Origin: Bolinopsis microptera
Taxonomy: Eukaryota > Ctenophora > Tentaculata > Lobata > Bolinopsidae
Assembly (NCBI RefSeq): GCF_026151205.1
Contig: NC_087082.1
Span: 19,368,494 to 19,432,493 of the forward strand
DNA length: 64,000 nt
Direction: 5' to 3'
Shown here: positions 7,167 through 31,700 of the stretch, piece after piece
Position numbering within the stretch: position 1 is the stretch's first letter
Layout of the letters: each line of letters begins with the position of its first letter
Notes under the pieces: model-generated
Databases searched by the model: none
What the model was told of the DNA's origin: nothing
Seen by the model: only the letters and a program-made list of their open reading frames with translations
Program-made: the position numbers and the translations under genes

Positions 7167-10100
7167 GTACCACCAATCATGTCTCAACAACCTTTTATTT
7201 TAAATCTCCAAAATCGGGTTTAACTTTAAGAACTTATGGGAAAATGGTTTGCTTTTAGACTTGAAGAATGTTAACATTTTGTCTCCTGCAGGTGGCGACC
7301 CTACTCCTGTCAGTGCTGGGACTAATAGGGAACTTACTGGTTGTCCTGGTGATCCTGTCCAGGAGGAGGTGGAGGTTCGCTAACAGCATGTTCGTCCTCA
7401 ACATTGCTATAGCTAACCTCTTTATCTGCGCCTTTACCCTGCCTCTCATGACTAGAGCTCTCTTTGAGATAGAGTGAGTTTTGTTACTTTGTCCTCAACA
7501 TTGCTATAGCTAACCTCTTTATCTGCGCCTTTACCCTGCCTCTCATGACTAGAGCTCTCTTTGAGATAGAGTGAGTTTTGTTACTTTGTCCTCAACATTG
7601 CTATAGCTAACCTCTTTATCTGCGCCTTTACCCTGCCTCTCATGACTAGAGCTCTCTTTGAGATAGAGTGAGTTTTGTTACTTTGTCCTCAACATTGCTA
7701 TAGCTAACCTCTTTATCTGCGCCTTTACCCTGCCTCTCATGACTAGAGCTCTCTTTGAGATAGAGTGAGTTTTGTTACTTTGTCCTCAACATTGCTATAG
7801 CTAACCTCTTTATCTGCGCCTTTACCCTGCCTCTCATGACTAGAGCTCTCTTTGAGATAGAGTGAGTTTTGTTACTTTGTCCTCAACATTGCTATAGCTA
7901 ACCTCTTTATCTGCGCCTTTACCCTGCCTCTCATGACTAGAGCTCTCTTTGAGATAGAGTGAGTTTTGTTACTTTGTCCTCAACATTGCTATAGCTAACC
8001 TCTTTATCTGCGCCTTTACCCTGCCTCTCATGACTAGAGCTCTCTTTGAGATAGAGTGAGTTTTGTTACTTTGTCCTCAACATTGCTATAGCTAACCTCT
8101 TTATCTGCGCCTTTACCCTGCCTCTCATGACTAGAGCTCTCTTTGAGATAGAGTGAGTTTTGTTACTTTGTCCTCAACATTGCTATAGCTAACCTCTTTA
8201 TCTGCGCCTTTACCCTGCCTCTCATGACTAGAGCTCTCTTTGAGATAGAGTGAGTTTTGTTACTTTGTCCTCAACATTGCTATAGCTAACCTCTTTATCT
8301 GCGCCTTTACCCTGCCTCTCATGACTAGAGCTCTCTTTGAGATAGAGTGAGTTTTGTTACTTTGTCCTCAACATTGCTATAGCTAACCTCTTTATCTGCG
8401 CCTTTACCCTGCCTCTCATGACTAGAGCTCTCTTTGAGATAGAGTGAGTTTTGTTACTTTGTCCTCAACATTGCTATAGCTAACCTCTTTATCTGCGCCT
8501 TTACCCTGCCCCTCATGACTAGAGCTCTCTTTCAGGTAATAATAACAGGAACCCGTATAACCCTAAAATGGTTTCAAGACTCAAGAGACTAAAATAATTA
8601 TTTCCTATTTAATTCGCGTTTTTGACACCACTTGGGGGTCCAAATTTTGGGCTCTAAAACTCCTATTCCTTGGCCAATTTTTTATTTTTTCATGCTGTCT
8701 TGAAAAGCATAAAAGCATTTGACCCAGTCAAAAAAGTTTCAGTTGTATATCTTTTACGGTTTTTGCGGAAAGTCGCGTTAAAGTTGATGCCGTGGTGTCA
8801 GTAAAATGGCACAGATAAATATATATATATCGTCTCGCTTTATAATTATATATAGTACTAAGATGTAATTATAAATATAAATATAATTATAATTACACAG
8901 CAATGCGATAAGAGTATTAAATAATTTAAAGAAGGTGTTTGGTGTAATAAGTTATAAACGCTCACAAGACCATATTTATACGTGAAATCACTGAGGGGTT
9001 TATAATATCTGTCTAAAAGTTCCAAATGGAATTTATACCTCTAGATAAAGTTAGACAGTTCTTTAATTGAGTTGAAGCTGTCAACAAAGTGGCGATATAT
9101 CTGTTTTCTAGAAGTTACCATGGTAACCTACCAGTACCATAGTTGCCATGGTAACCTACCATAGTTACCAGACCATTAGGCTAACAAGTTCTGCGGAATT
9201 TCTAAATTACCAAAACCCTGGTTAATTTGAAAATCTGGTAAAATTAAATCATTAATTGGTAATTAATTAAGTATAATTATTAAGTTATTACCACCGACAA
9301 CCCGAGGAGAATTAATTAGAAATTCAGAGGATGTCGTTAGCTCGACACGCTCTAATATGCCGCTGTGCTATGACCTTAAAATCAATAAATCAATATATCC
9401 GGGGCAACGTTTTATCGTAAGCTTCGAAAGAACATTCGAACAAGAACATTGCAGTATTTAATGCACTCTGTAATCTCAAATTAGCGGGTCAACGAGGGTA
9501 ACTTTCAGGTTTTACACTCAAACACGCTTTTTGAAATCCCCTTTGTCTAAGTGACTTAAATAAGACCGCAGCGGACATCTCCTTAACATTTTACATTGCA
9601 TTGTATAACGTACGTATTTACTACGTAACACTTAAAATTCACGTCGTAAACAAACAGGAATTAAACTTTAAAACTTTAAACATGAAATGACCAAGGAGAA
9701 CACTATAGTATAACGTGTTTACTACGTATTATAACACCACTCTCCGACTTATTTATTTATTCATTTAATTAACTGTCTCTCTTGCAGGGTGATGGACAAA
9801 TAATGTAACGATTTTTTTAAATGATTGACAATTTCATGAAGGAGCACTTGTTGTGTTTACTACGTAATATAACGACTGATTTGAATGTCCTGCACAGCAG
9901 ATCGAAGCATCTCTAAATTATTTACTATTTTTATTATATTGCTGTGTAAACTTGATTCTAATTCTAATAACTCCGTATCCAGGCTGGAACTCGTACATCT
10001 ACTCGCCGGTCACCTTCACCTGTGGTATAGACACGAACAAACCAGGAGCTCACAGCTATTACTTCCTGGTGTACCTCACAGTGGTGTTACCCGGTCCCCT

Positions 10101-14323: not shown

Positions 14324-15325
14324 CTAATCATCATTACAATTGTAATATAATGATAATAATTTGATTTGCTTTTTATTGCCAGATGTTTATTGGCATGTTT
14401 CTCGACACGATGGTGACCCCGAAAACATAAATTGATAGGGCCGCGTTGCGGAACAATGGACAAGCTTTATATTCAATCGTGATGATAGTTACACAAGTGA
14501 GACATGTGTTCTTTTCTCCCATTTTGGCCTTGATATAGGTTTATTGATACATATTTGGGGTCATTTCTTCAACTGATGGGGAAGTATAAAACTTGTATGA
14601 CTATCTACCTGTTTAAATATATATCGCACCAAACAGAATGATTTTTAGACAATATTGAACGAAATTATGTGTGCTGGTTGATGATGTTGATAAAAAATAT
14701 ACGTGCTCATAAGCGACTATTGCTGACGGTAGTAAACAGAAAAAGTTGTTGCAGTGTTAATGTGTGAATTTAGGAAATTTTATTTTATGTTGTTAGGTAT
14801 TTGAATAAGTTGAAAAACCAAGAATTTATCCTGTGATACGTGGAATTTATCTATAACTATAAGTAAAAGAGAAAGAAACACCGTTGTATAACTATACGTA
14901 TACAGATACTGTCGTTGAAATGCCATGGCAAGTTATTATTCGTGGCAAGTATTTATTCTCAATAATTATTATAAATAATTGTCATTCGTACTTGGCTGTG
15001 CTGAAAATGAAATTATAGTGGAAGCTATACTTAGGTTTTAAAAAATATTTATATTTTTGTTTACTTTTATTTGCTTTTAATTTAGTGTTTGATGTCATTA
15101 ATATTAGTATTACTTTGTTCGTCAGACCAACCCATCATCCCATCGAAAGTGCAGGACGGTGGAGGGGGTGCATGCGACGCCGTACAGGCAGAACAACACT
15201 TTGCTTGCCTAGCATGCTAGTCTATTGCTTGCTTCTCTACTGAAAATGAGGCAAAAGATGTTGTTTTGAGCTGTAACATGATGTCTGATAATTGGATAGG
15301 CTCAAACCCTACCGGCTGTGGTCTA
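14324..15325. other. 3' flank of GPCR, no further gene seen
   Basis: AT-rich sequence including the presumed 3' UTR. No canonical AATAAA is evident close to the stop. A GC-richer patch near 15130-15215 has no recognised ORF or RNA. The region ends at the left inverted repeat of the retroelement. Confidence 0.5.
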
Positions 15326-15352
15326 CAGTGGGGTGACATATGTTTTCGTCAC
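15326..15352 (+). repeat. Left 27-bp terminal inverted repeat
   Basis: Begins CAGTGGGGTGACATATG and ends TTTTCGTCAC, preceded by TA. It pairs perfectly with 21567-21593. Confidence 0.95.
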
Positions 15353-15688
15353 TTCTGAATGCGCGCATTTTAGCGCGCGAGTTTGCGTGCACGTCACGTG
15401 ATATTGTTAGCAGTGAGTGTAATCACGAGTCTGGAGAATTTGTCTAGTACAAGGCCCAGACCCTTTGGCGTATCTGTAGTAAATTTTGTGGCGATGTAAT
15501 ATCTATGACACCACTAATAATTGAGGAATAGGGAAGTGTTCACAATATCCAACTTAACATGGTAAACTTATGCTATCTCTGGCTGAAGATTAACAACTCT
15601 AACAGTATTTATTTTAATCAACTGAGAAACATTTGGTCTTGTTACCTCATCAATACCTAACGCTGTTTGTATTGTCATTATCAGAACC

Positions 15689-15746
15689 AACTTTATCGTG
15701 AATCTCTAACTTATCGTGAATCTCCAACTTTATCGTGAATCTCTAA
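15689..15746 (+). repeat. 19-bp direct repeats at the 5' edge of ORF1
   Basis: About three copies of CTTTATCGTGAATCTCTAA-like sequence. One copy provides the GTG at 15716 that opens the long frame. The first in-frame ATG is at 15794, which I prefer as the eukaryotic start. Confidence 0.75.
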
Positions 15747-15793
15747 GTGCCGGACTCTGTAAATCTACAAACAAAACGCTACGAAAACCATAC

Positions 15794-17230
15794 ATGACAG
15801 CAAAGCTTAATCTAGACTCTAGATACTATGATCATCTTATCAGAAATCCAACTGATAAGCAGACTATACACGGTAATCTAACCTCCGATTTTTGCATGCT
15901 GCTGGAAAAAGCCGAACAGACGCTTGACGAATACAAGGAGGTGATAAGGAGCTCTAGTTCTCTCGTCGCTAGGAACTCTACTCCCAACACTACTTCGGAT
16001 CCCTCAACCTTCGTCACAGGTTCGCCAGCCGGACACGAGGAAGTACTAGAAGCTACTCCGGTAAGAAGTTTGCGATCAAAGTTTGAGTTTGAAACGCATA
16101 ATGTTTGTGATGGACTGGACTTTCAACGCATAGGATCACGTGACGTCTCTTACTTCGGCTCCAGTAAATACAGTTACGGCAGTATTACCCATCGCGCTAA
16201 GGCCTACCCACCATCTGATCACGCTGTAAATAAAATACTAGACTGTATAGCTGACGAACTAGACGATCCCACCTTCAATAGGGATAACGTTACTTGCATG
16301 GTCACTAGATACCAGACAGGCTCAGACTCTATCCCGTTTCACTCTGATAATGAAACAGGCTTAACGGGTGAAATCATCACTGCCAGCTTTGGGGCCACTC
16401 GCACCTTAACTTTCCGTAACATAGTCACTGATGAGCGACGTGAACACGAACTAAGGAATGGCACAGTGTATGCAATGACCACAGAGTCTCAGTTTTTCTG
16501 GGAGCATGCGATACACCCCGAACCTGGCGTCACCTCGTGTCGTGTGTCAGTGACCTTTAGACGCATAGACAAGCCCATGCGCAGGCACATTCCTAAAATC
16601 CATGAACCGTCAATAGCACCATCCGACCCCCTGAGACCCTCCAAACAGACTGTCCTATACCTTACTGACTCCATGATACGTAACACCCCATCATCTTTCC
16701 CCTCTAACTTTCGTGTCATAAAGCGTGACATGTATCAACTCACGGACTTAAAGAAGTTTGAAAATTTTTTTGAAAACTGCGATTATGTGATTATATCTTC
16801 CGGTATTAATGATTTGTCGAGATATGACCATAGAAGCTATACACTTTCCCGTGAAATTAGGGACAACTTTAACTACTTGTTTGCTAGATACCCAAAAACA
16901 GTGTTTGTTTTCAACTCCCTTCTTAGAACGAGATTTGCATGGTTAAATAAGGAGGTTGATTTGTTTAACCGCTGCATGTTTGACTTTAGTCTGATCGAAA
17001 ATCGTAACTTTTGGTTTTTCGACTCCCACCATATTTGTAGTGTGATATTTAACAAAGGGTTTGAGATTTTAGATAGATCTGGAAATGGGATTCACATTAC
17101 TCAGCTGCCCAAGAGTGAGATAGCTAACTGTCTGGTGACCGGTGTTCAAAAACTCTCTATGCGAAGCGAGAAAGTTCGAAAGCACTGGCCATTAAGGCGG
17201 GAGTTTGTCTCGCTCTTGCCTGGTAACTAA
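15794..17230 (+). CDS. Retroelement ORF1: AlkB-like 2OG-Fe(II) dioxygenase fused to SGNH esterase
   Basis: 478 codons from the first ATG; the frame is open back to about 15716. Residues about 105-258 have an AlkB-family core: the NVTCMVTRYQTGSDSIPFH strand, the iron-binding H183-x-D185, the strand SFGATRTLTFRN, the third iron ligand H238 (FWEHAIHP), and the 2-oxoglutarate-binding R250 and R256 in CRVSVTFRR. The canonical RxNxTFR has Ser for Asn. Residues about 285-460 form an SGNH/GDSL-type domain: TDS with nucleophile Ser293, G337-I-N339-D340, and NGIH with His434. The usual Asp three residues before that His is Asn431. Esterase domains are known in ORF1 of CR1-type LINEs, whereas an AlkB domain is unexpected. 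AlkB enzymes demethylate alkylated DNA or RNA, so protection or repair of element RNA or cDNA is plausible. Confidence 0.85.
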   Translation: MTAKLNLDSRYYDHLIRNPTDKQTIHGNLTSDFCMLLEKAEQTLDEYKEVIRSSSSLVARNSTPNTTSDPSTFVTGSPAGHEEVLEATPVRSLRSKFEFETHNVCDGLDFQRIGSRDVSYFGSSKYSYGSITHRAKAYPPSDHAVNKILDCIADELDDPTFNRDNVTCMVTRYQTGSDSIPFHSDNETGLTGEIITASFGATRTLTFRNIVTDERREHELRNGTVYAMTTESQFFWEHAIHPEPGVTSCRVSVTFRRIDKPMRRHIPKIHEPSIAPSDPLRPSKQTVLYLTDSMIRNTPSSFPSNFRVIKRDMYQLTDLKKFENFFENCDYVIISSGINDLSRYDHRSYTLSREIRDNFNYLFARYPKTVFVFNSLLRTRFAWLNKEVDLFNRCMFDFSLIENRNFWFFDSHHICSVIFNKGFEILDRSGNGIHITQLPKSEIANCLVTGVQKLSMRSEKVRKHWPLRREFVSLLPGN

Positions 17231-17746
17231 CGGTTAAATACAAACTCACAAAGCCGTACCCCAGCCTACTACTTATACTTGCCGCGCCAAAATTTTCGCA
17301 AAATTTTTACAAAATCTTTAAGGGATTATAGCTTACATCTTATGGTTATAATGAAAACCCTCGCATAAAAATATATAGTCATGCCCGTGCTCTTATCAGC
17401 TTATCGTAAGTTACTAGAATTGTTGCCCGAGTTTTTTAAACACTTTAGAATAGTTCTGAAATCAGTACCGCTATCGTAATATTGTAATATTGTAGACTAC
17501 GTTACGATTCTATCTACACACAGAGCTGTATAGTTCTTGATAGGTAGGTCTAACAAGTTTTCTTTTTCTTCTTTACGCTTTCTCAGCACACAGTTTATTC
17601 CTCATTCATTCACACGCACACACATTAGCATTTTATACATATTCTTAGACTGTACAAGCTATTCTATACACCATACTATACACTCTTATCTATTTAATAT
17701 CTTACTTAATTATTCACAGATATCTGGTATTTACACATCTTGAACA
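17231..17746 (+). other. Gap between retroelement ORF1 and ORF2
   Basis: 516 bp of AT-rich sequence with multiple stops in all frames. A 68-codon ORF (17537-17743) ends just before ORF2 but has no recognised domain. How ORF2 is translated (reinitiation, internal entry or a separate transcript) is not evident. Confidence 0.6.
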
Positions 17747-20700
17747 ATGGTTGAACCTAGTTTCAAATCACAATGCTCAAGCTGCTTCGGGTGGTCTTAT
17801 GCTCCTAGAAATGTTTTCATTTGTCCTGTATGTGACAAACCAGTTCATAAAAAATGCCTCAAAGATTATCTTGGTTGTATTACATGCTGTCAAAACCTAA
17901 TACCTGGCTATAGAGTAACTTCCTACGAACTTAATGATAATTACAATACAATAACCCCCACTTTTAACCCCTATATTCGTTCTCACGTACTGAATCAAAT
18001 AGGCGAACTTACTGATGAAATAGATTCCAGCGAAATCGATCTCAACAATTGTATATCGGAGATATTGGTTAGCTGTAAGTACCAACACCCTGATAATATC
18101 AAGACCCCTAGCAATCGCGAATTTAAGATACTTTCGTTAAACGTTAGATCACTCGTGAAGAATATCTCAAATTTTAGAGAAGAAATAGAAACATTCTCCA
18201 AATTTGACCTCATCTGCCTCAATGAAACCAACTGTAAAATTTCTAATCTTCCTAATGGTCTGAACGACATTGAAATCGAACAGTTTTACGAGCCCTTTAT
18301 CAAAGAACCTGCACGTAAATCTGGAAAAGGAGGTGGTCTTGCGCTCTATGTTAACAAACACGTTTGTGATTACGATAAAATACAGGAACTCGAACTCAAT
18401 CTGAGTCCAGAAGAAGTTACTTGCGGAGAATTTCAATTGCTTAAAATCAACAATTTTAAAAACGGAAATAAGACAAAAATCATCGTAAATTTCTACCGCT
18501 CGCCATCCACAAGCCCTAAAAAATTCCTTGAAAAGTTTGAAAACGTGCTCAGGGGTCTTGATAGACACTCCAGAAAGCAGATAGTCTTCCTGGGTGATGC
18601 AAATATTGATCTTATAAAATACGATACCGACGCTTACAGCCAGGATCTTATAAGCTTACTAGAAAAATATGGGTTTGCCCAGACTGTCTCCAAGCCTACC
18701 AGGGTAACTGACCACAGTGCAACGCTTATTGATCACGTGTATACTAATCACGTGACCAACGTTATTAGTTGTAATGTCGTGACGTTGGATATGTCAGATC
18801 ATCTCGCGGTTAGCACGACCATTAGTTTAGGAGCCACACCTAGTTTGAACGAGCGATTCCGTAGTCAACGTGTAAAGAACAACAACACTAGCTTGAAATT
18901 AGAGGCCCGTGTATTTAACGAAGCTAATCATGCGAAATTCAAAGAGCTTATTGTAAGTGAGACCTGGGATGATGCTACCTCCTCAACGTGCGCTGATGAA
19001 CAATACAATTCCATCTATCAAACGTACATGAAACACTACAATACTGCATACCCCCTGAAGCGCGACAGTTCGAGAAGAAAATTCGAAAGAGCTGACCCAA
19101 AGCCTTGGATCTTACCCTGGCTTGAGGCGGCATGCAACCGCAAGAAGTTACTTTTTTTTGAAAAAACTATAAATCCATCACAAAAAAACAGCGACGCGTA
19201 TGATAAAATGAAAAAGTTTTGTCACAAACATGTGAATCTAGCCAAAGAAAAGTACTATAAAAAAATGTTTGACAAATACCAAAACTGCTCTAAAAGTCAA
19301 TGGAAAATTATCAATGGCCTCCTGAACCGTAACAGAAAAAAGTTCGGACACACCCGTCTGAAGGACGACGATGGCACGATTATAAGCTCCGATCTGGCAG
19401 TCGCTGAGAAATTTAACGGCTACTTCTCCGGTATTGCAGCCAGTATCAAGAGGCAAATCGCTGCCCGTCGAACCTTTGACCCAGGTGGTTTCAAGCATTT
19501 TCTTAAGGCTTCGTGTAGTAACTCGATGTTTCTTAAGCCTACATCACACGGTGAAGTCCAAAAGATAATATCAGGGCTTAAGAACAAGTCCACACTCGAT
19601 TGTAAAATTGAGCCATTGAAAATTGCAAACAGCTGCGAAAACTTTACCAGGGCACTAGCTAATGTCATTAACTGTTCGTTCTCCAGTGGTACCTTCCCAA
19701 ATGCTCTAAAAACTGCGAAAGTCGTTCCTATCCACAAAGGTGGTTCAAAATTGGAAGTAGCTAATTATAGGCCGATCTCTCTTTTGGGATCATTCTCGAA
19801 AATTTATGAGAAACTTATGCATGCTCGTGTTTTAGAATTTTTAGATAAGAACGATTCTCTTTTCGAAAATCAATACGGATTTCGGCCAGGAAGATCGTGC
19901 GAACATGCACTGCTCAATGCCCAAAATTCTATACTACACTCTCTGAATAAGAAACAAATTTCCCTACTGCTCCTGCTCGATTACAGTAAAGCCTTTGATG
20001 TGCTTGATCATGAGACCTTGCTTAAGAAGCTTGACCATTATGGGATCAGGGGAGTCGCGCACGAATGGTTTAGATCTTACCTTTGTAATCGATCTCAATA
20101 CGTAACTTTAAACGGAACTTGCTCTTCTAGCATGCCCATAGTTTACGGCGTACCTCAGGGTAGCATTTTAGGACCTCTCTTATTTGTAATTTATATAAAC
20201 GACCTACCTGGAATTAGTGATTTTGCAAAGTTTATCCTTTATGCCGACGACGCAAACATATTAATTAGTGGAACCACCCTAGAAGAAATACAATTAAAAG
20301 CTAATCAGCTAATTTCACGTCTTGTAGATTGGGTAGGTGTTAATGGGCTATCTTTAAATGTAAAAAAGACGTGTTACATGATTTTCACTAGAAAAAGAAT
20401 CGACTTCAGCGGCTTTAATTTGTCCATTGACAACACTGTAATCGAACGTAAGACTGAAGCAAGATTTTTAGGAGTGATCCTAGACGAAAAGCTCACTTGG
20501 CAAAAACACATTACGGCCGTTAGAATAAAGATGGGTCGCTACCTCGGAGTTATGTATAAGCTAAAGCACCTTCTACCTATCAAAGCCCGCCTAAACATTT
20601 TCCAAAGCCTTATCCAATCCCATCTAAATTTCTGTTCTTTAGTGTGGGGATTTGCCTCAAAATGTCACATTGAATCTCTGTTCACCAAGCAAAAGCAGGG

Positions 20701-21229
20701 AATTAGAGCTGTTATGTCAGGATATGTAAATTATAGATATAAAGACGGCAATCCCCCGGAGCACACAAAAAGTGCGTTTAGATTGCATAATATCCTAACA
20801 GTCCATAGCGTCATTGTAAAAAACGCTCTTATTCTACTACACAAAGTAAGGAACATGCCAAGCCTTCTCCCTAAATCCATCAAAGAACTTTTCCCTCACG
20901 ATATTCCCACCTATAATTCCACATACGAACATAACCTTTCTTGGTTCACAACTTACAACGGCCCAACATTTAGAAATACTCTTTTCTTCAAAGGACCCAT
21001 GCTCTCTATTACAAAACAAAGTAAGGATATAACTATTCCAAGTTCTACCTTTTCAATTGAAATCTTTAAAAATTCAGCTAAGCGCGAACTCCTCAAGCTG
21101 CAAAGCTCAGGAGACGATGAAAATTGGCCAAATTTCTTACTTTATAGTATACCTGGGCTAAGAAAGTCTCAAAGAGAAGGGCGCTCGCAAATAGACTACA
21201 GCACCGAGTTAGTAAGCGACAACGCGTAA
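17747..21229 (+). CDS. Retroelement ORF2: PHD-like finger, APE-type endonuclease and reverse transcriptase
   Basis: 1160 codons from ATG in a good context (AACAATGG). An N-terminal C4HC3 zinc-binding pattern uses C10, C13, C26, C29, H34, C37, C44 and C47. The exonuclease-endonuclease-phosphatase domain follows, with N132, E160, GDAN at 283-286 and SDH at 350-352, all catalytic positions retained. The reverse transcriptase has NYRPISLL, GFRPGRS, first catalytic Asp745 (DYSKAFD), YGVPQGSILGPLLF and YADD at 832-835. The layout fits the Jockey/CR1/L2 group of LINEs, in which the endonuclease nicks target DNA and the RT primes from the nick. There is no RNase H domain. The frame is uninterrupted with all active-site residues, so the copy looks young and possibly active. 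Confidence 0.95.
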   Translation: MVEPSFKSQCSSCFGWSYAPRNVFICPVCDKPVHKKCLKDYLGCITCCQNLIPGYRVTSYELNDNYNTITPTFNPYIRSHVLNQIGELTDEIDSSEIDLNNCISEILVSCKYQHPDNIKTPSNREFKILSLNVRSLVKNISNFREEIETFSKFDLICLNETNCKISNLPNGLNDIEIEQFYEPFIKEPARKSGKGGGLALYVNKHVCDYDKIQELELNLSPEEVTCGEFQLLKINNFKNGNKTKIIVNFYRSPSTSPKKFLEKFENVLRGLDRHSRKQIVFLGDANIDLIKYDTDAYSQDLISLLEKYGFAQTVSKPTRVTDHSATLIDHVYTNHVTNVISCNVVTLDMSDHLAVSTTISLGATPSLNERFRSQRVKNNNTSLKLEARVFNEANHAKFKELIVSETWDDATSSTCADEQYNSIYQTYMKHYNTAYPLKRDSSRRKFERADPKPWILPWLEAACNRKKLLFFEKTINPSQKNSDAYDKMKKFCHKHVNLAKEKYYKKMFDKYQNCSKSQWKIINGLLNRNRKKFGHTRLKDDDGTIISSDLAVAEKFNGYFSGIAASIKRQIAARRTFDPGGFKHFLKASCSNSMFLKPTSHGEVQKIISGLKNKSTLDCKIEPLKIANSCENFTRALANVINCSFSSGTFPNALKTAKVVPIHKGGSKLEVANYRPISLLGSFSKIYEKLMHARVLEFLDKNDSLFENQYGFRPGRSCEHALLNAQNSILHSLNKKQISLLLLLDYSKAFDVLDHETLLKKLDHYGIRGVAHEWFRSYLCNRSQYVTLNGTCSSSMPIVYGVPQGSILGPLLFVIYINDLPGISDFAKFILYADDANILISGTTLEEIQLKANQLISRLVDWVGVNGLSLNVKKTCYMIFTRKRIDFSGFNLSIDNTVIERKTEARFLGVILDEKLTWQKHITAVRIKMGRYLGVMYKLKHLLPIKARLNIFQSLIQSHLNFCSLVWGFASKCHIESLFTKQKQGIRAVMSGYVNYRYKDGNPPEHTKSAFRLHNILTVHSVIVKNALILLHKVRNMPSLLPKSIKELFPHDIPTYNSTYEHNLSWFTTYNGPTFRNTLFFKGPMLSITKQSKDITIPSSTFSIEIFKNSAKRELLKLQSSGDDENWPNFLLYSIPGLRKSQREGRSQIDYSTELVSDNA

Positions 21230-21566
21230 AGAAAGATCACTCGCGACAAATGACTATGATCTTTTATCAACAACATATCATTTTAATTTCACTGCCATTA
21301 TGCAATGCCGAATTTACATCTGCCGCGCAAAACTTTTTATCTATTATTATTAAATAGTAATTAGCATGTTTACAAATTGCGACTTCAACCAGTTTTGCAG
21401 ACCGTTAGTTATATACTTATAGTACTTTTAGTAGGGCATTTATTTTAATATATTTATTTTACATTATTATATTTTAGTGTGACTTCTATAATTTCATTTA
21501 TGTAATAACCATTGATCAATAAATTGCGGCACACGCCAACCTCCACCGTGGGGTTTCAAACAAACA
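21230..21566 (+). other. Retroelement 3' untranslated region
   Basis: AT-rich, with a polyadenylation signal AATAAA at 21518-21523, followed by a GC-richer stretch (CACGCCAACCTCCACCG) and the right inverted repeat. No terminal poly(A) or microsatellite tail typical of LINE 3' ends is visible before the inverted repeat. Confidence 0.65.
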
Positions 21567-21593
21567 GTGACGAAAACATATGTCACCCCACTG
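21567..21593 (-). repeat. Right 27-bp terminal inverted repeat
   Basis: Starts GTGACGAAAACATATG and ends CACCCCACTG, followed by TA. Perfect reverse complement of 15326-15352. Confidence 0.95.
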
Positions 21594-22433
21594 TATCTCC
21601 AAAAGTAAAATAAACAGAACCTTCCGGTTTTCAACAATATTTCCGTCTCGTAAATTTAAATGTTAAAGTTAAATCCCCAGGAGCAAAATTTGGGACAACT
21701 TAGATTCTGAATTAAACCGAATAGTTTGATTTTGGGCTAAATAAAAGATCGTAGCTTTTTAACTTGGCAAAGTAATGTGGTTGTCATGACTACTAGGCTA
21801 TATGCAGCGTGCGAAAGGTAAACTTGATGTGACGCGCGATCAGGACAAACGCGCTGTTGAAAATCGATCACCTCTAGCGAGCCCGGCAGGTGGTAAGGTT
21901 TTCTGGGCGCGAGAGTTCATAGTTCAGTTGCAGCAGAAGGAAGGGGGGAGGTTAATGGGGGTGGGAGGTTTGGGGATGTTTTAATTATAATAATGGTATT
22001 ACCTTACCATTGGTAAGGTTTTCTGGAAACTTTGTCATAAAGATCGAGACGACACATTTTCGTGAATAAGGCTTTGCAACGAGTGGAGGGAGCTGATTTG
22101 ATTTGAAACTTTTACAAAATAGCAAATATACAAATGTACAGCAAATCGAACAACATATAAATTGGGCCGAAATGTATAAATGCTATAAAGCGTGGGTCAG
22201 TGAAACAAGTACAGAGAACAACTTTTAAAACAGGAGTTTTATGGCCGCCCAAAGTCTCAATAACATCACCTCCACCTAGTAATAAAATTATGAAATATGA
22301 TAAGTGTGAAACAATCAAATAATAAAGTATTTAAATTATATAATTGTCTCTCAAATACAGATAACATCCGAAAACTCATAAAATTCTCATCACTCCTACA
22401 TATACTGATCAGTGTCCGAGAGACATAAATAAC
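21594..22433. other. Spacer between two retroelement segments
   Basis: No gene recognised. GGTAAGGTTTTCTGG occurs twice (about 21892 and 22013), and there is a small inverted repeat ACCTTACCATTGGTAAGGT near 22000. A 60-codon ORF at 21802-21984 lacks recognisable features. No ORF2 belonging to the minus-strand ORF1 is present here. Confidence 0.55.
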
Positions 22434-23336
22434 TCATGATGGCTTTTTATCACGGCTACATACCTTCCCGTACCGGATATAGTGGTCGAGATGAGTCTGT
22501 TCAGCCCTCCTCTTCTTCAGGTCAGTTACCAGATGCTTCCTTGTTGCTCGTTCTTCGCAGGATCTGTCTGGACATATCCATACAACTTTGTGCGACTCAA
22601 CTAGCCTCAGTCTCCCTGTTTTCATCAGAATCTGATGAACTGCTGTGGAGCTTGGGACGGTGATCTTGACTGGTCGGATAGCCGTACTACCTGGTCTCTT
22701 CCAGCCGATTCTAGTCGCTTCGAAGTGAGGTTTCTCCCCGATCTCCTCCAATACTGCGGTAACTAGCGCTGGAAGCTGTTCTTCCTCCTCTTCTTTTAGC
22801 CCAAACACAATCAGGTTCTTGCTCCTGTCCTCCTCTGCAGCCACACTCTTCATCACCTTCTTCAGGATATTACTGTTGCAGACCGTACCACTTGTGCTGT
22901 TCTGTTGTACAGCTGCACTGTAGCACTGAATCCCAGACTGCACCGTCGTTTGCACTGTCTCCTCAACAGACGTCTTAAGCAATTGAAGTTGTTCATCCTT
23001 CTGCACAAGCAGTTGGCCCTGCAGTCTGATCACCTTCTCTTTGTCTGCTAGTGCTTCCGTCTTGAAGCACTCGATGATCTCCTTCAAGAGATACAACTGA
23101 CTATTCTGCCGACGAACAAGGTCTACTGCATTCACAAGCCAGCCTGACAGAGTCTGTTTATCCTTAGTCTTGATCTTTTCACGACTTTCGTAATCAATGT
23201 CACTGTAGTCCATGTGCAGGTCTTTTCCTAACTGACTGCACCACCTTGCAACACAGCCTTCCACATCTTCCTGTTCATCATAATTGAACTCCTTGATTAA
23301 CTCCTGGGATCGGGTCAAACTTGGGTCATCCGCCAT
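22434..23336 (-). CDS. Orphan LINE ORF1-like protein (coiled coil plus RRM-like region)
   Basis: 300 codons from MADDPSL (start at 23336); the frame extends upstream to 23447, but the added residues are hydrophobic and untypical. The N-terminal half is acidic and helical, with a likely coiled coil around residues 95-140 (Leu/Gln/Glu-rich). A downstream segment (RSKNLIVFGLKEE, then ATRIGWKRPG, RPVKITV and the PDRSCEERATRKHLV tail) resembles the RNA-binding ORF1 proteins of invertebrate LINEs. Such proteins coat element RNA. No reverse transcriptase follows within 800 bp, so this is a truncated element, a solo ORF1 or a co-opted copy. Confidence 0.7.
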   Translation of the reverse strand: MADDPSLTRSQELIKEFNYDEQEDVEGCVARWCSQLGKDLHMDYSDIDYESREKIKTKDKQTLSGWLVNAVDLVRRQNSQLYLLKEIIECFKTEALADKEKVIRLQGQLLVQKDEQLQLLKTSVEETVQTTVQSGIQCYSAAVQQNSTSGTVCNSNILKKVMKSVAAEEDRSKNLIVFGLKEEEEEQLPALVTAVLEEIGEKPHFEATRIGWKRPGSTAIRPVKITVPSSTAVHQILMKTGRLRLVESHKVVWICPDRSCEERATRKHLVTDLKKRRAEQTHLDHYIRYGKVCSRDKKPS

Positions 23337-23447
23337 AGTGTACTTGTATAGTAATGTACAAGTACACACGCAAAGGTAAACTACGCTGTAGCAGCAAACT
23401 GAACTTATCGCAAATTTACAAAAGATAAGAGAGCTCGATATTTGCAA

Positions 23448-28095: not shown

Positions 28096-28791
28096 TTAAT
28101 CTATCCCATTCCATTCAGCGTGAGGGGCATTAATGTAATTCCCCTTCTTATATTCCTCACTCTCAAACCACTCCCTCAGATTTGGTAACTCCTTAAATCT
28201 TAACAAATAATTTAGGACATTGTTGCAGCTTGTGAAGGCCTCAGGTAGAAACTGTCTCAGTTGATCCAGATATTCGTAAAGAAGGAAGTCCACATAAACA
28301 GGCTTATCCCCCAGCAGAAATTTCTTTGTCAGAGTCTTCTCGAACTTTGGAATCCTCTCTCTCAGTCTCCGGAGTAAAGTTCTTTTCATGAACTCGTGGT
28401 CGAAGACCCCCTTCTCAGATGCTGGAAAAGGTCCACGTGCGCCGTAATAATCATAGCATGCAGCTGTTAATCTATTGCGTAGATCATAGATTTCCTGCTC
28501 AACAACTTCACACAAAACCAACTCCTGTGGACTAGTCGGGTACAGCCCAAACTTCCTGCCGAGATACCTCATGATCGTAATACTCTGAGTTACCTTCTTC
28601 CCGTCGTCCTCGATAAAGGGCAAGTTCCCAAATGGCATGTCCTCTTGATCCCTCATGCTAACATACTCTCTAAAGGATCCAGCAGTCGGCTGTAAAGCAT
28701 TGTCTTCCCAGTCCTCGTTTTGATATCGGAGAATGTGTCTGATTGGCTCTCCCAAGGCTCGGATAGACCAGTATGTTAGTTTTATTGTCAT
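28096..28791 (-). CDS. Glutathione S-transferase, mu-like
   Basis: 231 codons, uninterrupted. The N-terminal thioredoxin-like domain has Tyr7 (KLTYW), the residue that activates glutathione in mu-, alpha-, pi- and sigma-type enzymes. It also has the cis-Pro loop NLPF (56-59) and the glutathione-binding QS at 69-70 (VTQSITIMRYLGRK). The all-helical C-terminal domain follows, with PVYVDFLLYEYLDQLRQFLP, the helix found in mu-class enzymes. The length is slightly above the usual 215-225. It conjugates glutathione to electrophiles in the cytosol. The start codon and first nine codons are part of the adjacent 50-bp satellite, and the satellite fills the gene's whole upstream side, so no normal promoter is visible. 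The body of the gene shows no damage. Confidence 0.9.
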   Translation of the reverse strand: MTIKLTYWSIRALGEPIRHILRYQNEDWEDNALQPTAGSFREYVSMRDQEDMPFGNLPFIEDDGKKVTQSITIMRYLGRKFGLYPTSPQELVLCEVVEQEIYDLRNRLTAACYDYYGARGPFPASEKGVFDHEFMKRTLLRRLRERIPKFEKTLTKKFLLGDKPVYVDFLLYEYLDQLRQFLPEAFTSCNNVLNYLLRFKELPNLREWFESEEYKKGNYINAPHAEWNGID

Positions 28792-31700
28792 TTCCTAAAT
28801 AAGAAGGTTGAGGTAGACCAGTATGTTAGTTTTATTGTCATTTCCTAAATAAGAAGGTTGAGGTAGACCAGTATGTTAATTTTATTGTCATTTCCTAAAT
28901 AAGAAGGTTGAGGTAGACCAGTATGTTAGTTTTATTGTCATTTCCTAAATAAGAAGGTTGAGGTAGACCAGTATGTTAGTTTTATTGTCATTTCCTAAAT
29001 AAGAAGGTTGAGGTAGACCAGTATGTTAGTTTTATTGTCATTTCCTAAATAAGAAGGTTGAGGTAGACCAGTATGTTAGTTTTATTGTCATTTCCTAAAT
29101 CAGAAGGTTGAGGTAGACCAGTATGTTAGTTTTATTGTCATTTCCTAAATGAGAAGGTTGAGGTAGACCAGTATGTTAGTTTTATTGTCATTTTCTAAAT
29201 GAGAAGGTTGAGGTAGACCAGTATGTTAGTTTTATTGTCATTTCCTGAATAAGAAGGTTGAGGTAGACCAGTATGTTAGTTTTATTGTCATTTCCTGAAT
29301 AAGAAGGTTGAGGTAGACCAGTATGTTAGTTTTATTGTCATTTCCTAAATAAGAAGGTTGAGGTAGACCAGTATGTTAGTTTTATTGTCATTTCCTAAAT
29401 AAGAAGGTTGAGGTAGACCAGTATGTTAGTTTTATTGTCATTTCCTAAATAAGAAGGTTGAGGTAGACCAGTATGTTAGTTTTATTGTCATTTCCTAAAT
29501 GAGAAGGTTGAGGTAGACCAGTATGTTAGTTTTATTGTCATTTCCTAAATAAGAAGGTTGAGGTAGACCAGTATGTTAGTTTTATTGTCATTTCCTAAAT
29601 AAGAAGGTTGAGGTAGACCAGTATGTTAGTTTTATTGTCATTTCCTAAATAAGAAGGTTGAGGTAGACCAGTATGTTAGTTTTATTGTCATTTCCTAAAT
29701 AAGAAGGTTGAGGTAGACCAGTATGTTAGTTTTATTGTCATTTCCTAAATAAGAAGGTTGAGGTAGACCAGTATGTTAGTTTTATTGTCATTTCCTAAAT
29801 CAGAAGGTTGAGGTAGACCAGTATGTTAGTTTTATTGTTATTTCCTAAATAAGAAGGTTGAGGTAGACCAGTATGTTAGTTTTATTGTCATTTCCTAAAT
29901 AAGAAGGTTGAGATAGACCAGTATGTTAGTTTTATTGTCATTTCCTAAATGAGAAGGTTGAGGTAGACCAGTATGTTAGTTTTATTGTCATTTCCTAAAT
30001 AAGAAGGTTGAGGTAGACCAGTATGTTAGTTTTATTGTCATTTCCTAAATAAGAAGGTTAGGTAGACCAGTATGTTAGTTTTATTGTCATTTCCTAAATA
30101 AGAAGGTTGAGGTAGACCAGTATGTTAGTTTTATTGTCATTTCCTAAATAAGAAGGTTGAGGTAGACCAGTATGTTAGTTTTATTGTCATTTCCTAAATG
30201 AGAAGGTTGAGGTAGACCAGTATGTTAGTTTTATTGTCATTTCCTAAATAAGAAGGTTGAGGTAGACCAGTATGTTAGTTTTATTGTCATTTCCTAAATA
30301 AGAAGGTTGAGGTAGACCAGTATGTTAGTTTTATTGTCATTTCCTAAATAAGAAGGTTGAGGTAGACCAGTATGTTAGTTTTATTGTCATTTCCTAAATA
30401 AGAAGGTTAGGTAGACCAGTATGTTAGTTTTATTGTCATTTCCTAAATAAGAAGGTTGAGGTAGACCAGTATGTTAGTTTTATTGTCATTTCCTAAATAA
30501 GAAGGTTGAGGTAGACCAGTATGTTAGTTTTATTGTCATTTCCTAAATAAGAAGGTTGAGGTAGACCAGTATGTTAGTTTTATTGTCATTTCCTAAATAA
30601 GAAGGTTGAGGTAGACCAGTATGTTAGTTTTATTGTCATTTCCTAAATAAGAAGGTTGAGGTAGACCAGTATGTTAGTTTTATTGTTATTTCCTAAATAA
30701 GAAGGTTGAGGTAGACCAGTATGTTAGTTTTATTGTCATTTCCTAAATAAGAAGGTTGAGGTAGACCAGTATGTTAGTTTTATTGTCATTTCCTAAATAA
30801 GAAGGTTGAGGTAGACCAGTATGTTAGTTTTATTGTCATTTCCTAAATAAGAAGGTTGAGGTAGACCAGTATGTTAGTTTTATTGTCATTTCCTAAATAA
30901 GAAGGTTGAGGTAGACCAGTATGTTAGTTTTATTGTCATTTCCTAAATAAGAAGGTTGAGGTAGACCAGTATGTTAGTTTTATTGTCATTTCCTAAATAA
31001 GAAGGTTGAGGTAGACCAGTATGTTAGTTTTATTGTCATTTCCTAAATAAGAAGGTTGAGGTAGACCAGTATGTTAGTTTTATTGTCATTTCCTAAATAA
31101 GAAGGTTGAGGTAGACCAGTATGTTAGTTTTATTGTCATTTCCTAAATGAGAAGGTTGAGGTAGACCAGTATGTTAGTTTTATTGTCATTTCCTAAATAA
31201 GAAGGTTGAGGTAGACCAGTATGTTAGTTTTATTGTCATTTCCTAAATGAGAAGGTTGAGGTAGACCAGTATGTTAGTTTATTGTCATTTCCTAAATGAG
31301 AAGGTTGAGGTAGACCAGTATGTTAGTTTTATTGTCATTTCCTAAATAAGAAGGTTGAGGTAGACCAGTATGTTAGTTTATTGTCATTTCCTAAATAAGA
31401 AGGTTGAGGTAGACCAGTATGTTAGTTTTATTGTCATTTCCTAAATAAGAAGGTTGAGGTAGACCAGTATGTTAGTTTTATTGTCATTTCCTAAATGAGA
31501 AGGTTGAGGTAGACCAGTATGTTAGTTTTATTGTCATTTCCTAAATAAGAAGGTTGAGGTAGACCAGTATGTTAGTTTTATTGTCATTTCCTAAATAAGA
31601 AGGTTGAGGTAGACCAGTATGTTAGTTTTATTGTCATTTCCTAAATAAGAAGGTTGAGGTAGACCAGTATGTTAGTTTTATTGTCATTTCCTAAATAAGA

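Follow-up and report, generated by a model that had tools for sequence, protein, structure and literature searches.

Does a long interspersed nuclear element (LINE) of a ctenophore encode its own AlkB-type dealkylase, and what would such a domain do for the element? The question is raised by a locus in a stretch of 64,000 nucleotides of the Bolinopsis microptera genome (contig NC_087082.1, positions 19,368,494 to 19,432,493, forward strand), hereafter the window. An initial annotation, made from the letters alone, had read the first open reading frame (ORF1) of a LINE there as an AlkB dioxygenase fused to an SGNH esterase. The AlkB-SGNH fusion is a conserved ORF1 architecture of several subfamilies, tied to ORF2 in the B. 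microptera genome.

ORF1 and its copies in the genome

The AlkB domain of the window ORF1 (Table 1) scored 62.8 bits against Pfam PF13532 (cut-off 31.2). ORF1 also matched ALKBH3 in the PDB (phmmer, E 1e-7) and the alkylation repair family of PHROG (E 1.2e-11), in agreement with the initial annotation. The iron triad and both arginines were found at the positions and in the order given there (H183-S-D185, H238, R250 and R256, the arginines within RVSVTFR), and these five residues are invariant in an alignment with 30 phage and viral AlkBs. An IMG/VR scan with phage and bacterial AlkBs had yielded 34 loci, 30 of which were used in the fold alignment. The domain has the double-stranded beta-helix fold and is closer in fold to ALKBH2/3 than to ALKBH5/FTO. 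Its N-x-Y motif reads T-R-Y, with the Tyr retained and Thr171 at the Asn position. IMG/VR scans with ORF1, ORF2, the terminal inverted repeat (TIR) described below and the first AlkB alignment gave no relative, nor did a scan of a genome-contig library with that alignment. Two motif scans returned 54 loci, none with a frame of at least 60 aa matching the ORF1 AlkB part at E 10.

Relatives of ORF1 were then sought in the same genome (a 264.65-Mb assembly of 232 contigs). The AlkB domain is not confined to one copy: 89 ORF1 matches were found, 78 of them without internal stops, and the majority group into about eight subfamilies, the most distant at 30% identity to the window (A 93-100%, decayed pieces aside; B 45-53%; C 41-44%; D 40%; E 34-35%; F 30-31%; G 30%; H 32-33%). 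We read 45 of the 89 loci (the 30 best, 13 of F-H, one D and one E). With the rearranged locus L113 excluded from residue counts, and L117 and L125 lacking the AlkB site, 42 loci cover that site, and all 42 retain H183, D185, H238, R250 and R256; the iron ligands are thus not lost elsewhere among the covering loci. The subfamilies share only 26-59% pairwise AlkB identity, and we count the eight subfamilies as the independent units, copies inside one subfamily not being independent. The presence of a conserved AlkB domain in a LINE family is well founded.

As the initial annotation had it, an endonuclease (EN)-reverse transcriptase (RT) frame follows ORF1 on the same strand. ORF2 of the window matched RVT_1 (117.5 bits) and Exo_endo_phos_2 (40.5 bits); its PHD match (16.7 bits) lies under the cut-off of 24. 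ORF2 is found downstream on the same strand at 43 of the 45 loci read, spread over 14 contigs, with no ORF2 match within the fetched stretch at L127 and L135. The EN residues E, D, N and H, together with YADD, are present in each subfamily row whose fetched ORF2 spans them. AlkB and SGNH identities correlate across subfamilies (rho 0.82), whereas AlkB and EN identities do not (rho -0.05, 28 pairs); further rank comparisons of AlkB with EN or RT gave rho 0.14 (15 pairs) and -0.01 (10 pairs), the ORF2 rows of B and C being partial. Because AlkB and EN/RT identities do not rank together, we claim no single history for ORF1 and ORF2. The pattern fits a reshuffling of ORF1 between ORF2 lineages, a process described by Metcalfe and Casane for the Jockey superfamily (PMC4120745).

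Within subfamilies, the ratio of nonsynonymous to synonymous divergence (dN/dS) of the AlkB part was 0.36 in A, 0.18 in B and 0.31, 0.14 and 0.15 in C, G and H, where it rests on 12, 9 and 6 pooled differences. In subfamily F it was 1.70 (10 synonymous and 56 nonsynonymous pairwise differences), mainly from L135 and L136. The SGNH part gave 0.00-0.26 in all six subfamilies computed, and in the N-terminal region, which is looser, the five computable subfamilies gave 0.36-0.70. Between subfamilies, the proportion of nonsynonymous differences in AlkB is below that of synonymous differences (pS) in 28 of 28 pairs, with pS near saturation.

The C-terminal half of ORF1 is supported by its sequence as an SGNH relative. 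The TDS (S293), GIND (N339) and NGIH (H434) blocks stand where they had been noted; the SGNH Pfam scores of the window copy (13.2 and 15.3 bits) lie under the cut-off of 32.9. Nine ORF1s were scanned with PF13472: the longer A copy L102, B, D-H and two further loci, L154 and L155, with C left out. Eight of the nine matched at the same place at E 0.11 or better (B 0.0037, D 0.11, E 0.001, F 0.01, G 0.00024, H 3.9e-6, L154 5e-6, L155 0.0063), L102 gave no match at E 1, and none reached the curated cut-off, the best being subfamily H at 27.9 bits. Among the covering loci S293 was kept in 41 of 41, N339 in 42 of 42 and H434 in 39 of 41, and S293, G337 and N339 are retained in all covering loci of the eight subfamilies. 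An ordered three-motif pattern was absent from 200,000 shuffles, and a looser version turned up in 17 out of 100,000; the patterns were written after the sequence had been seen, so the test is supportive only. The SGNH part alone found nothing in the PDB at E 10 and only matches at E 1-8 in plasmids and phages, and its single-sequence fold was too poor in quality for use.

The window copy gives no support for the word "esterase". Catalysis is doubtful in its subfamily because, although Ser, Gly-x-Asn and His are retained, Asn431 takes the place of the triad Asp three residues ahead of the His. The residue at this place is Asn in A-C (Lys in L127), Arg in D, His in E and F, and Asp in G and H. 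The oxyanion Gly expected 22 residues after the Ser, as in ZfL2-1, is Gln315 in the window and Gly in 0 of the 42 covering loci.

Candidate functions of the AlkB domain

We place first, at about an even chance, a reading in which the AlkB-SGNH ORF1 protein (ORF1p) of this two-ORF, EN-bearing LINE of a Jockey superfamily-like kind is a candidate dealkylase acting on the element's own RNA or cDNA. ORF1p would coat the element RNA in a ribonucleoprotein. The SGNH part would act in binding, at membranes or as a scaffold, a role already suggested for the esterase ORF1ps of other elements, and the AlkB domain would bring both contact with nucleic acid and dealkylation. It would oxidatively remove methyl groups that stall RT, such as N1-methyladenosine (m1A) and 3-methylcytosine (m3C), from the RNA template or single-stranded cDNA during target-primed reverse transcription, and more full-length copies would result. 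Template or cDNA repair is our first choice because m1A impedes an R2-type RT and AlkB treatment gives partial relief (PMC12140624).

Several observations weigh against it. At the Asn position of the N-x-Y motif all 42 covering loci carry Thr171; this Asn is usual rather than universal (it is Ser in one of the 30 phage and viral AlkBs, L072), and we did not treat it as defining. Internal stops interrupt 11 of the 89 ORF1 places, and PF13532 gave no match to subfamily H at E 1 or better, where a weak PF03171 match was seen. The dN/dS of subfamily F, the few differences behind the values of C, G and H and the near-saturated pS tell in the same direction. The window copy itself is 5'-truncated and may be immobile. 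As to the substrate, m1A and m3C would be favoured over N6-methyladenosine (m6A) because the modelled fold is nearer ALKBH2/3 than ALKBH5/FTO, a likeness that is only suggestive.

Other AlkB frames of the genome bear on a broader view. At least 151 PF13532 matches were found (150 scored). L154 (C5:18134300-18137200) is ORF1-like, with AlkB and SGNH followed by an EN ORF; its AlkB score of 85.4 bits recurs at other matches, eight places having that score. L155 (C1:21679600-21682000) has AlkB, a coiled-coil-like stretch and SGNH. L153/L159 (C10:16875000-16879900) is part of a 3388-codon open frame with AlkB, DUF6570 and repeats, and further AlkB frames of 2225-3366 codons are among the PF13532 matches listed. 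We take DUF6570 to be Helitron-associated, and the L153/L159 frame is possibly a Helitron-like protein carrying AlkB. L153-L155 keep the Asn of the N-x-Y motif. In a 47-row AlkB tree, which leaves out RNA-virus AlkBs, subfamilies A-H stand with L153 and L154 on one side of a branch with support 100/99 and L155 stands outside it, L153 and L155 being long branches of unsure placement. Three other AlkB frames (L156-L158), presumably host genes, group with phage and bacterial AlkBs. Tentatively, at somewhat less than an even chance, AlkB may serve the mobilome as a shared tool: an old clade specific to elements and present in several LINE ORF1 lineages and in a giant, apparently Helitron-like ORF, often accompanied by SGNH and reshuffled relative to ORF2. 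It would circulate because the host marks or damages element RNA or DNA by base methylation, so that elements able to erase the methylation win.

The main rival to repair of template or cDNA is that the AlkB domain is an epitranscriptomic eraser, removing m6A or another host mark from element or host RNA, or N6-methyladenine (6mA) from element DNA, and so evading host silencing. The AlkB of an orchid Gypsy element demethylates m6A RNA in vitro (PMC9289625), and the presence of AlkB in several element types of one genome is more readily explained by an arms race over a host mark than by random damage. The ALKBH2/3-like fold speaks against an eraser, and we regard it as possible though rather unlikely. 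Less probable still, and in our view unlikely, is that both folds are non-catalytic nucleic-acid binding modules conserved for structure and metal binding. The missing triad Asp in the SGNH half of A-F and the Thr of the N-x-Y motif throughout A-H would suit such modules, but neither the iron ligands nor the two Arg vary across eight subfamilies as divergent as these, and a mere binding fold would not need such constancy.

The window copy and its surroundings

Table 1. Features of the LINE copy and of the interrupted miniature inverted-repeat transposable element (MITE); positions are those of the window.
Feature	Position	Strand	Details
Left part of ~676-bp MITE (TA, TIR, MITE 1-329)	15324..15654	+	99.1% over 329 nt to stand-alone copies L145, L147
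MITE positions 621-649 (330-620 missing), last MITE bases before LINE	15658..15686	+	100% over 29 nt to L145-L148
LINE insertion, ~5879 bp, 5'-truncated inside ORF1	15687..21565	+	edges good to a few bases
Three copies of LINE 5' end, 18-19 bp apart, at truncation junction	15687..15746	+	repeat analysis (period 19), alignment with longer copy L102
ORF1 of truncated copy	15794..17230	+	478 codons from first ATG; ~residues 125-602 of longer ORF1p
AlkB (2-oxoglutarate-Fe(II) dioxygenase) domain	15992..16576	+	residues 67-261
SGNH-like domain	16643..17161	+	residues 284-456; S293, N339, H434 present; Asn431 three before His
ORF1-ORF2 gap, 516 bp	17231..17746	+	acceptor-like TTCACAG shortly before ORF2 Met; from sequence
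ORF2, 1160 aa	17747..21229	+	PHD-like finger (weak), APE-type endonuclease, reverse transcriptase with YADD
Right TIR of MITE (positions 649-676) + TA	21566..21595	-	inverted repeat, MITE comparison

The window copy resembles a usual LINE insertion that has lost its 5' end, and both frames that remain in it are open. The 478-codon product initially taken as ORF1 starts at an internal Met of this truncated copy. In longer copies the ORF1 frame begins 114 codons further upstream, with 620 open codons against 506 in the window and about 602 aa from the first Met. The initial annotation mentions neither this truncation nor the surrounding MITE, nor the family across the genome. The tandem copies of the 5' end at the junction may reflect slippage on the template at integration. 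Around the LINE, MITE positions 1-329 and 621-649 are followed after the insertion by 649-676, and because the MITE breaks off and resumes at position 649 we conclude that the LINE inserted into it. At most one base, MITE base 649, is shared by both sides as a target-site duplication. A 12-bp duplication was ruled out by the MITE comparison, which places the LINE edges at ~15687 and 21565.

The perfect 30-nt inverted repeat around the insertion (15324-15353/21566-21595) lies 6.2 kb apart with TA flanks, and 0 occurrences of its 27-mer are expected in shuffles; this could suggest a LINE carried as cargo of a DNA transposon. The TIR 27-mer occurs at 42 exact places in the genome, with eight pairs 576-686 bp apart besides that of the window and three wider pairs (1.2, 1.4 and 3.6 kb). 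Seven stand-alone MITEs of 576-686 bp bounded by the same TIRs were read (TA on both sides in six, on the right side only in L147). Each is too short for the LINE, which moreover interrupts MITE position 649, and these copies refute a TIR-bounded retroelement, to which we give very little credence. A host AlkB-SGNH gene that merely happens to neighbour a LINE, a reading for which the 516-bp gap might speak, has practically no chance of being right and is already refuted by the copies, since ORF2 follows at 43 of the 45 loci fetched (14 contigs), the MITE insertion spans both ORFs and the AlkB clade excludes the three other AlkB frames of the genome.

A splice-acceptor-like TTCACAG is found at 17700-17747, shortly ahead of the ORF2 Met, and ORF2 could be expressed through trans-splicing there if the host trans-splices. 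Beyond the LINE, a 337-aa ORF on the minus strand (22434-23447) resembles by eye ORF1 of another LINE type and has no Pfam match above cut-off. A mu-class-like glutathione S-transferase (28096-28794, minus strand) adjoins a 50-bp satellite of about 697 copies, which fills the right half of the window (28764-64000) with a GC skew of about +0.4. Upstream, a 97-bp unit is repeated 11.7 times (7394-8532) and, read by eye, may encode a segment resembling membrane helix 2 of a rhodopsin-type receptor.

Relation to known elements

The closest counterparts of the SGNH half are the esterase-type (type IV) ORF1s of CR1/L2/RTEX LINEs such as ZfL2-1, which likewise have a C-terminal SGNH domain and a downstream EN-RT ORF2 (PMC3905857, PMC4120745). 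The S/N/H order is shared and the spacing is close (S-N 46 here and 52 in ZfL2-1; N-H 95 and 87). In the ctenophore element, however, AlkB lies ahead of the SGNH domain, the window subfamily keeps neither the triad Asp nor the oxyanion Gly, and the transposon-specific His (H191 of ZfL2-1, four before the Asn) is Ser335. According to PMC3905857, ZfL2-1 ORF1p combines a dimeric coiled coil with a lipid-binding esterase, and a structured RNA-binding domain was found in no esterase ORF1p of Repbase at that time. The parts read of these two papers do not name AlkB.

A retrotransposon with an acquired AlkB-family demethylase is known from Ty3/Gypsy long terminal repeat (LTR) elements of Phalaenopsis orchids (PMC9289625). 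There, AlkB is a separate, ALKBH5-like ORF in a plant LTR element and is described as recent, whereas the B. microptera element is non-LTR, with the domain fused within ORF1, an ALKBH2/3-like fold and many subfamilies. AlkBs are also attached to replicating RNA in the replicases of RNA viruses (Flexiviridae and others, PMC544882), and RNA-virus AlkBs are among the best fold matches in a viral-only fold library; here the domain sits in a retroelement ORF1, not in a replicase polyprotein, and the likeness does not establish a common origin. An RNA-active enzyme domain in a Jockey-like LINE ORF1 has a parallel in insect LINEs with a virus-like SF1 helicase in ORF1 or ORF2 (PMC5563155, in whose main text "AlkB" is absent). 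A search of titles and abstract openings, which did not extend to Repbase, bioRxiv or most subscription papers, listed no non-LTR element with AlkB. The literature matches listed include an LTR element with AlkB and a helicase or esterase in LINE ORF1, and AlkB in a LINE is not among them.

The ctenophore family widens the range of what LINE ORF1 proteins can be. If the dealkylase reading is true, a LINE-borne AlkB would tie retrotransposition directly to base methylation or alkylation damage. The family would also offer natural pairs of RT and demethylase, where AlkB has already been added by hand to get RTs past m1A, and it points to an unexplored methylation-based conflict in a ctenophore.
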